From NCBI RefSeq assembly GCF_020715685.1, contig NZ_CP085840.1, positions 434,001 through 498,000 on the forward strand: 64,000 bases of DNA, in the 5' to 3' direction. Under the pieces are notes generated by a model, which saw only the letters and a list, made by a program, of their open reading frames with translations, was not told where the DNA came from and did no database searches. Position numbers and translations under genes: made by a program. This document shows positions 41,254-43,546 of the stretch, piece by piece. Numbering within the stretch: position 1 is the stretch's first letter; each line of letters begins with the position of its first letter. Source of the DNA: Dermatobacter hominis (GTDB taxonomy: Bacteria; Actinomycetota; Acidimicrobiia; Acidimicrobiales; Microtrichaceae).

Positions 41254-41781
41254 TCAGCCCTTCCTGCCCTTCGCGGGCTGCTTGCCGGTCAGGCGGTTGA
41301 CGATCTCGATGCCGCCGCACGGGTCGTAGCCCTCTGGGCACGTCAGTGCCCCCGGCCGTCCGAACTGGCGCGGATGCACGATCAGGAAGCACGTCGGGCA
41401 GGTGAACTCGTCCGCGGTCTTGGCCGCGACCCGCTCGCCGGACTCGGCACCGGGCTCCTCGAGCTCGTCCTCGTCCTCGTCGTCGTCGCCCGCGGCGATG
41501 CGGTCCTTGAGGATCGTGTCCAGGTCGGCCTCGACGTCGTCGGGGTCGACGTCCTCGTCGTCCTCGTCCTCGTCCTCGGAGGCGCGCTTCGCCTTGGCCG
41601 CGGGGACGTCGTCGGCCGCGTCCTCCTCGTCCTCCTCCTCCACGGCGACGACGACATCGTCCTCGTCGTCTGCGATCTCGACCTCGTCGATGTCCTCTTC
41701 GAGATCGTCGTCGAGGGCTTCCTCGTCGTCGAGGGTCTCCTCCTCGTCGGTGTCCTCATCAAGGAGTTCGTCGTCGTCCAT
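41254..41781 (-). CDS. DUF4193-like acidic protein with zinc-binding cysteines
   Basis: A 175-residue protein whose first 110 residues are almost entirely Asp and Glu. The C-terminal part has ADEFTCPTCFLIVHPRQFG, the DUF4193 block, and further cysteines (LTCPEGYDPCGG) that would complete a zinc site. Actinobacterial DUF4193 proteins are about 100 residues, so the acidic N-terminus is extended here. GAGAGGAAC precedes ATG 41781, and a TATGAT -10 box on the minus strand lies about 62 bases upstream. Function unknown; it heads the four-gene operon. Confidence 0.78.
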   Translation of the reverse strand: MDDDELLDEDTDEEETLDDEEALDDDLEEDIDEVEIADDEDDVVVAVEEEDEEDAADDVPAAKAKRASEDEDEDDEDVDPDDVEADLDTILKDRIAAGDDDEDEDELEEPGAESGERVAAKTADEFTCPTCFLIVHPRQFGRPGALTCPEGYDPCGGIEIVNRLTGKQPAKGRKG

Positions 41782-41923: not shown

Positions 41924-43546
41924 TCAGGCCGACTCGGTCCGCCGCGCCTCGGCGCGGCGCTCCGCACCGAGGCGCTCCAGCTCCGCCTCGCCGGAGTGGT
42001 CCACGAAGCGCATCATCTCGGCGATGGCCCGGTGCCCCGCCCGCTCCGCGATCAGGTGGTGCATCCGCTGGCCGATCGCCCGGTAGCTCGGGTGGCCCTG
42101 GATCGAGGTCCGCAGCTCGATGAGGTGCATGGCCTCCCGGGCGTTGAACTGCATGGCGTAGCGGAGGCGGTAGGCCAGCGAGACCGCGTACGAGGCCCGC
42201 TCCGGGAACCGCTCCGCCAGCAACGACCACAGCGCGGCCGACCGCTCCATGGCGTCGTCGAAGCGGCCGGTCATCCCGGCCTCGTCGATCGCGGCCGGAC
42301 GGGTGTAGCCGTGGGCGGGCGTCAGCTCCTGCCACTCGATCGTCATCAGCCGGTGGCGCTGCAGGTCGCGGAAGGCGCCGTAGTCCGAGACGACGTCGAA
42401 CCGGTAGTCCGTGCGCTCGAGCGCCCGACCGGGCTTGTGGCGGCGGTTGGTGCGGTCGCCGACGTAGGCCCGCATGACCGCCAGGCGGTCCTCGACCGAC
42501 ATGGTCCGGACCCGTTCGATCAGCGTCGACTCCGCGAGCCCGGTGTAGGGGTAGAGCATCGCGGCGACGACCTTGAGCTCGCCCTCGGGGTCGAAGTCGA
42601 CCAGCTCGACGCCCGGATCGGTCGGGCCGTCGACGGCGTCGCCCGAGAGCATCTCGTAGGTGATCGCCTCCATGGCGTCGCGGTTGGTGCGCAGGTACTC
42701 GGAGGTGGCCACACCCCGATCGGGCAGGTCGACCCGCTTCAGGAAGCTGGGCACCACCTTGCGGAGCTCGACGAGCATGAGGTCCGCGTACTGCCGGGCC
42801 TCGGGCAGCGGGTGCGAGCGCATGCGCAGGAGCAGCGTCTCGAACGCCTGGCCCGATGCGTAGATGCCGACGTTCGACAGCGAGGCCGCCGGCAGGATGC
42901 CGCGGACCGCGTCGAAGGCCTTGGCCCGGATGGCCTGGCGGTAGACGAAGTCGGAGTCGGACTCGCTCTTCGGGTGGCGATCCCGGAAGTGCTCCTGCAT
43001 GTCGAGGGCCAGCGCCGAGTACGTGTCGAACAGCTGGTCCATGTCGCCGACGTAGCGGGCCCCGAGGTGCGAACCGAGGATCTCGGGGTCGCGGTGGTAG
43101 CGGTAGCGGCCGCCGAGGCGCTCGTCGTAGGGGATGTAGCGGGTCGACTGCTCCAGGTAGGACATCAGCCGGCCCCACTCGAGGACCTTCGTCAGGAGGT
43201 TCGAGGCCTGTTCGCAGGCGAGGTGGACGCCGCCGAGCTGGGCCACGCTGTCGTCGCCGTACTCGAAGAACACCCGGTCGTAGAGCGACTCGGCCCGGGC
43301 CAGGCCGATGGTGGCGTCGACGGTCTCGTCGCCCGTGGTGTCGAGCTCGCCCACGAACTCGTCGAGGAACAGGCGCCGCAGCGACTTGGCCGAGCGCGAG
43401 TAGCGGGCGAAGAGCGCTCCCTTGACGACCTCGGGCAGGTTCACGAGCGCGAAGACCGGCCCGTCGAGGCTGGTGAAGTAGCGACGGAGGACCGTCGACT
43501 CCTCCTCCGTGAACTGCTCGGCGACGTAGGTCGGGAGTGCCGTCAT
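41924..43546 (-). CDS. Double-length ThyX (FAD-dependent thymidylate synthase-like), two domains
   Basis: A 540-residue protein made of two ThyX-like halves; normal ThyX is 210-260 residues. The N-terminal half has WGRLMSYLEQSTRYIPY near residue 132: it keeps the SxRY end of RHRx7SxRY but has WGR for RHR. The C-terminal half has DLQRHRLMTIEWQEL near 396, keeping RHR but losing the Ser and Arg, and FNAREAMHLIELR near 469, keeping the NAR...LR element. Normal ThyX sites are built between subunits, so one complete site could form between these halves. Activity is not proven. Confidence 0.85.
   Translation of the reverse strand: MTALPTYVAEQFTEEESTVLRRYFTSLDGPVFALVNLPEVVKGALFARYSRSAKSLRRLFLDEFVGELDTTGDETVDATIGLARAESLYDRVFFEYGDDSVAQLGGVHLACEQASNLLTKVLEWGRLMSYLEQSTRYIPYDERLGGRYRYHRDPEILGSHLGARYVGDMDQLFDTYSALALDMQEHFRDRHPKSESDSDFVYRQAIRAKAFDAVRGILPAASLSNVGIYASGQAFETLLLRMRSHPLPEARQYADLMLVELRKVVPSFLKRVDLPDRGVATSEYLRTNRDAMEAITYEMLSGDAVDGPTDPGVELVDFDPEGELKVVAAMLYPYTGLAESTLIERVRTMSVEDRLAVMRAYVGDRTNRRHKPGRALERTDYRFDVVSDYGAFRDLQRHRLMTIEWQELTPAHGYTRPAAIDEAGMTGRFDDAMERSAALWSLLAERFPERASYAVSLAYRLRYAMQFNAREAMHLIELRTSIQGHPSYRAIGQRMHHLIAERAGHRAIAEMMRFVDHSGEAELERLGAERRAEARRTESA

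Follow-up and report, generated by a model that had tools for sequence, protein, structure and literature searches.

Dermatobacter hominis encodes what is very likely a double-length, two-domain flavin-dependent thymidylate synthase (ThyX), whose halves have lost opposite parts of the active site and would assemble into a pseudo-tetramer with two live sites. Judged from its conserved residues, the bacterium appears to make thymidylate with this fused enzyme, a working site forming only from both halves together. The gene lies within the window, which is the whole 64-kb stretch of DNA that was analysed. The plus strand across 41924-43546 is likewise open, and homologues were found for the minus frame; open frames on both strands are common in GC-rich DNA. 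The features of the gene are as follows.

41924 to 43546, minus strand: tandem (two-domain) ThyX gene, 540 amino acids, ATG start, stop included; 78 homologues align end to end over the full length
42677 to 43546, minus strand: D1, first Thy1/ThyX domain, residues 1 to about 290 (Pfam Thy1, hhalign, predicted fold)
41987 to 42625, minus strand: D2, second Thy1/ThyX domain, about residues 308-520 (Pfam Thy1, hhalign, predicted fold)
43247 to 43258, minus strand: D1 GDDS (residues 97-100), equivalent of GHxS/T (His53, Thr55); His replaced by Asp98, Ser100 kept
43136 to 43177, minus strand: D1 half-motif WGRLMSYLEQSTRY (residues 124-137); Ser88, Arg90, and Tyr91 equivalents S134, R136, and Y137 kept, Arg78-His79 replaced by Trp-Gly
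42902 to 42904, minus strand: D1 R215, putative equivalent of T. maritima ThyX Arg147 by hhalign register; Arg in 112/112
42350 to 42358, minus strand: D2 half-motif RHR (residues 397-399), Arg78-His79-Arg80 equivalent, with no SxRY after it
42110 to 42145, minus strand: D2 NAREAMHLIELR (residues 468-479), with NAR at 468-470 and ELR at 477-479; N468, R470, and R479 are the Asn163, Arg165, and Arg174 equivalents

Two ThyX domains in one chain

By profile comparison, both halves of the protein are Thy1/ThyX domains, with a ThyX fold in predictions; the first-pass annotation had already called both ThyX-like. The whole 540-residue protein matches Pfam Thy1 (PF02511) with 109.1 bits in two stretches, and each half does so alone at about 56 bits (residues 1-300, E 4.9e-15; residues 301-540, E 3.6e-15), the cut-off being 24.8 throughout. 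Against the NCBIfam thyX equivalog TIGR02170, the protein scores 41.6 bits, below the cut-off of 87.9.

For hhalign, 79 tandem proteins were combined in one profile, which was split into D1 (1-290) and D2 (291-540); a second profile, against which both parts were run, held TM0449 and 20 single actinobacterial ThyX proteins. The TM0449 sequence used agrees with its PDB copy at 219/220 residues, the second-last being different. Both domains match the single ThyX profile (D1, probability 96.9, E 1.8e-10; D2, probability 97.9, E 3.4e-13), and the divergent tandem proteins of phages and plasmids match it more strongly (E 6.4e-22 and 9.5e-17). When compared with one another, D1 and D2 of the actinobacterial type reach a probability of 6.7 with no global match, and those of the phage type match partially (probability 78 over 61 columns). 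At the profile level, D1 and D2 are each closer to single ThyX than to one another. A direct sequence search of the 540-residue protein against solved structures found no ThyX; the relation is visible with profiles only.

The predicted model of D2 aligns to solved ThyX with a Z of 15.9 (rmsd 2.5, 183 residues). Its best fold match is Thermus thermophilus Thy1 (PDB 6J61), a longer ThyX with an extra C-terminal domain, which differs from the tandem form in having one Thy1 domain (T. maritima ThyX is matched once, at residues 6-229). A D1-only model (residues 1-300, from a more diverse alignment; pLDDT 89.1) aligns to solved ThyX with a Z of 13.1; the best unrelated structure has a Z of 5.8. From the full-length model (pLDDT 76), we discarded the D1 half, whose catalytic loop has a pLDDT below 50, and the D1-D2 arrangement.

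The active site is divided between the halves

The same division of active-site residues is found throughout the tandem proteins. We compared 112 distinct sequences from Actinobacteria, Bacteroidota and Bacillales plasmids, jumbo phages, and viral contigs, taken from 42 loci of the species collection, 40 survey-genome regions, viral contigs, plasmids, and one phage. Residues were placed on T. maritima ThyX numbering by the hhalign profile alignments, in which D1 W124-G125-R126 is aligned to Arg78-His79-Arg80 and E132 to Glu86. S134, R136, and R215 of D1, and R397, H398, and R479 of D2, are invariant in 112/112 proteins, while S100, E132, and Y137 of D1 are kept in 111/112. By this register, the dUMP-side residues (Ser88, Arg90, and Arg147 equivalents) fall in half 1 of all 112 proteins and the flavin-side residues (Arg78, His79, and Arg174 equivalents) in half 2 of all 112.

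A motif scan found a contiguous RHRx7-8SxR within one domain in 0/96 tandem proteins and 0/33 distant tandem proteins; across all those scanned, D1 had no RHR and D2 no SxRY. In contrast, 20/20 single actinobacterial ThyX proteins and TM0449 (21/21 together) carry RHR and then, 7-8 residues on, SxR[YF]. The D2 motif is RHR or RHNR in every tandem protein, RHNR being that of the Bacillales type. Of the 22 invariant columns in alignment A3, whose 55 proteins reach as low as 21% identity to the 540-residue protein, 10 are ThyX active-site positions by this register: S100, E132, S134, R136, Y137, R215, R397, H398, R399, and R479. Two proteins appeared as exceptions in the motif scan. One (L147) was rejected as an exception, as its QRSTRY stands for ExSxRY and the split is obeyed; the other (L115), a divergent copy of reduced length, has Lys in place of Tyr.

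The first-pass annotation had seen a full RHRx7SxRY in neither half, and the survey extends this to 112/112 distinct tandem proteins. It had further given SxRY to half 1, and RHR together with NAR and ELR to half 2. The placement of SxRY and RHR stands, but NAR and ELR are not specific to half 2, since most actinobacterial D1 domains have an Arg174 counterpart and the phage/Bacillus type has NAR in half 1.

A candidate pseudo-tetramer with two live sites

In solved ThyX, subunit A supplies RHR together with Arg199 (Arg174 in T. maritima); subunit C supplies Ser105, Arg107, and Tyr108 (Ser88, Arg90, and Tyr91 in T. maritima); and subunit B supplies Ser71 and Arg190 (M. tuberculosis numbering) (PMC6514825, review). 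A like division of the site between two monomers is reported for PBCV-1 ThyX (PMC3498832), and His53 is supplied by a third monomer (PMC11940539). From the numbering offset, we infer that Ser71 corresponds to Thr55 and Arg190 to Arg165.

All A-role residues of the tandem protein (R397, H398, and R479) are in D2, and all C-role residues (S134, R136, and Y137) are in D1. R215 is also in D1; its equivalence to Arg147 is placed by sequence register only, and the subunit role of Arg147 is our own putative assignment. In the GHxS type described below (n=29), the B-role residues sit in D1 as well. In solved ThyX tetramers, the two sets of residues are contributed to a site by different subunits, so the losses in D1 and D2 are complementary. 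This strongly supports the first-pass suggestion of complementary half-sites after duplication: by alignment, the A-role residues are invariant in half 2 and the C-role residues occur only in half 1.

We propose that duplication and fusion of an ancestral thyX came first, after which each copy lost the opposite half of the active site. D2 would stand in for the FAD-holding subunit, which also polarises uracil (RHR and the Arg174 equivalent), and D1 for two neighbour subunits, contributing the GHxS/GDxS element and, for dUMP, SxRY and Arg147. Since a ThyX site draws on three subunits, a live one should take one D2 and two copies of D1, and hence two chains. The first-pass annotation had considered a split site in one chain; the D1-D2 pair of a site may come from one chain or from two. 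Sequence and published geometry together suggest that a dimer of two-domain chains most likely forms a pseudo-tetramer in a 222 arrangement, in which two sites would be complete (D2 + D1 + D1') and two dead. Here D2 would take role A and the two D1 copies roles B and C, and the D1-centred sites would have neither RHR nor SxRY. The ThyX homotetramer has four equal sites, whereas the tandem form is expected to have two per four domains. The reaction would be the formation of dTMP from dUMP, methylene-tetrahydrofolate, and NADPH, and the protein very probably works like ThyX.

One observation speaks against two dead sites: an Arg at the Arg174 position is kept in most actinobacterial D1 domains, and a wholly dead site would have no need for it. 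We consider unlikely a more far-reaching version of the proposal, in which complementary loss has turned a homotetramer into an obligatory asymmetric pseudo-heterotetramer (two live and two dead sites) found widely among bacteria and jumbo phages. In that version the actinobacterial type, its folate-stacking His53 changed to Asp, would also have put the D1 pocket, dead but with its Arg retained, to a second use, e.g., allosteric or substrate sensing.

GDxS and GHxS subtypes

Tandem proteins comprise two subtypes. The GDxS type (83/112, including the D. hominis protein) has Asp at position 98 in 83/83, whereas the others, of GHxS type, have His there in 28/29 and keep in D1 both the Ser (28/29) and the Arg165 equivalent (28/29). 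In D1 of the GDxS type, the Arg165 position is Gln (Gln233 in the D. hominis protein) and Arg occupies the Arg174 position in 77/83; the D2 counterpart of the former, R470, is kept in 83/83. The place of the NAR residues also depends on the type: half 2 for the actinobacterial type alone, half 1 for the phage/Bacillus type. By this register, the third-subunit (role B) part of the site is altered in the GDxS type, with His53 changed to Asp98 and Arg165 to Gln233 in D1. Crystals of a laboratory H53D mutant of T. maritima ThyX have been obtained with FAD alone and with FAD and dUMP (PDB 4KAR and 4KAS). At D1 residue 124 (43175-43177), Trp is replaced by Arg in 14/83 GDxS-type proteins, giving an RGR that is partly like RHR.

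The subtypes differ in their carriers. A Parabacteroides distasonis plasmid record (L116, 3001-4620) encodes a GDxS-type protein 45.5% identical to that of D. hominis, a distant host for this type. GHxS-type proteins with RHNR in D2 are encoded on 200-kb plasmids of Bacillus and Paenibacillus (L117-L120, L139-L146, L148, and L149). The Paenibacillus rhizovicinus plasmid (228,841 bases) is equal in size to an IMG/VR contig (L145) and encodes the same protein; thus, these plasmids may be phage-plasmids. A tandem ThyX, split as in bacteria, is also found in phage Tunturi_5 (309 kb) and in viral contigs (360-529 kb; L109, L111, L113, L121, and L136).

Genome context and the case for thymidylate synthesis

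The tandem ThyX is the sole candidate thymidylate synthase of the D. hominis genome (4.66 Mb, one contig, 95.8% complete). In this genome, profile searches found no Thy1 match other than the two halves, and no ThyA (PF00303), DHFR/folA (PF00186), or thymidine kinase (PF00265); a dUTPase is present. These absences rest on one genome of estimated 95.8% completeness, but the class agrees; PF00186 is absent from 22/25 of its genomes. Organisms with thyX are often without folA (PMC9931769), and the D. hominis pattern, with neither thyA nor folA, is that of a ThyX organism. The first-pass annotation had treated a second thyX or thyA as telling; neither was found, and this favours the split-site idea.

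A survey of 149 genomes of the phylum gives the same picture. At least two Thy1 matches of the tandem kind occur in 47, including 13/13 of the class, and 46/47 of these have no ThyA match (Fisher p 6e-7). From 39 of the other 46 paired-Thy1 genomes, 40 loci were obtained, each a single tandem open frame. A short ThyA match (74 positions, in a 110-residue frame) accompanies two Thy1 matches in one survey genome (G129), and another (G040) has two tandem ThyX genes on separate contigs (L067 and L068).

Neighbouring genes in relatives make dUMP or its precursor: a dUTPase and a dCMP deaminase are near the tandem ThyX in phage Tunturi_5, and a dCTP deaminase is near that of a Euzebya plasmid. The neighbours in the 64-kb window (M20 peptidase, DUF4193-like, GNAT, enoyl-CoA hydratase, zinc dehydrogenase, and DSHCT helicase) are uninformative on function. 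The DUF4193-like neighbour (41254-41781, minus strand) is a very acidic protein of 175 amino acids whose C-terminal part resembles DUF4193 at 24.5 bits, against a Pfam cut-off of 25.

This context bears on whether the protein might be a ThyX-derived enzyme for another substrate, e.g., a UMP or pyrimidine C5 methylase or hydroxymethylase like PolB, and not the cell's thymidylate synthase. ThyX paralogues with relaxed substrate choice do exist, PolB among them (PMC5003785; see also PMC5954106), the third-subunit residues of the GDxS subtype are altered, and the GHxS type is carried by some phages. However, the cell has to obtain dTMP somehow, and its genome has neither another thymidylate synthase nor a thymidine kinase; among surveyed genomes of the class, 13/13 carry the tandem form without ThyA, and no antibiotic or nucleotide-modification genes adjoin the tandem ThyX. 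A change of substrate is quite improbable.

It is highly improbable that ThyX catalysis belongs to D2 alone, with D1 reduced to a degenerate half of structural or regulatory use. D2 does keep RHR, NAR, and ELR, and is closer than D1 to solved ThyX (Z 15.9 versus 13.1), but it has no SxRY in any protein examined, and S134, R136, Y137, and R215 of D1 are as firmly kept as the RHR of D2. If D1 were merely structural, its catalytic loop would not be held constant from Actinobacteria to Bacillales plasmids and phages. A non-catalytic flavoprotein or pseudoenzyme, an alternative raised in the first-pass annotation that would suit the incomplete motif of each half and the score below the NCBIfam thyX cut-off, is hardly credible given near-absolute conservation of the split residues and a genome with no other dTMP source.

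Relation to known ThyX proteins

The tandem protein shares the Thy1 profile and the predicted fold of ThyX in both halves (PF02511, TIGR02170; solved for T. maritima, M. tuberculosis, H. pylori, and PBCV-1), and has the main catalytic residues once per chain. It differs in having two domains per chain, with RHRx7SxR divided between them, and in falling below the TIGR02170 cut-off. A domain-duplicated ThyX was noted in Chloroflexi in 2009 as uncharacterised, and was the only thymidylate synthase of the Chloroflexi genomes then available, except Dehalococcoides (PMC3224940). That protein and the tandem ThyX, compared by description, are likely one family; both are ThyX with a domain duplication, but a partition of residues is absent from that paper's account.

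The two-domain layout and the split are shared by phrog_36506 (PHROGs, 491 positions, "thymidylate synthase") and by the jumbo-phage and Bacillus/Paenibacillus plasmid proteins, which are about 21-33% identical to the D. hominis protein. In D1 these have retained GHxS and N-x-R, which are replaced by GDxS and Gln in the actinobacterial type. Plasmid records name tandem members FAD-dependent thymidylate synthase. Automatic annotation gives members the plain ThyX name, or they miss the equivalog cut-off, and the split is hidden. Double-length ThyX has been noticed before, and the division of labour between its halves appears to be undescribed in the literature searched; that search found no account of a residue partition and covered few subscription papers, so it is no proof of novelty.

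If the proposal is correct, all sampled genomes of the class Acidimicrobiia, many other actinobacterial families, and many large phages need such an enzyme for DNA synthesis, and its architecture is absent from every solved thymidylate synthase structure. It would also show cleanly how, in nature, the two copies left by a duplication can degenerate in complementary ways within a single active site, and the outcomes in D1 and D2 can be read residue by residue. Subunit roles in the ThyX mechanism could be tested directly in the tandem protein, since each role could be mutated alone, unlike in the homotetramer.

Three loci on contigs titled "Bifidobacterium breve" (L008, L013, and L035) encode proteins 73-81% identical to that of D. 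hominis, and this label is probably wrong.
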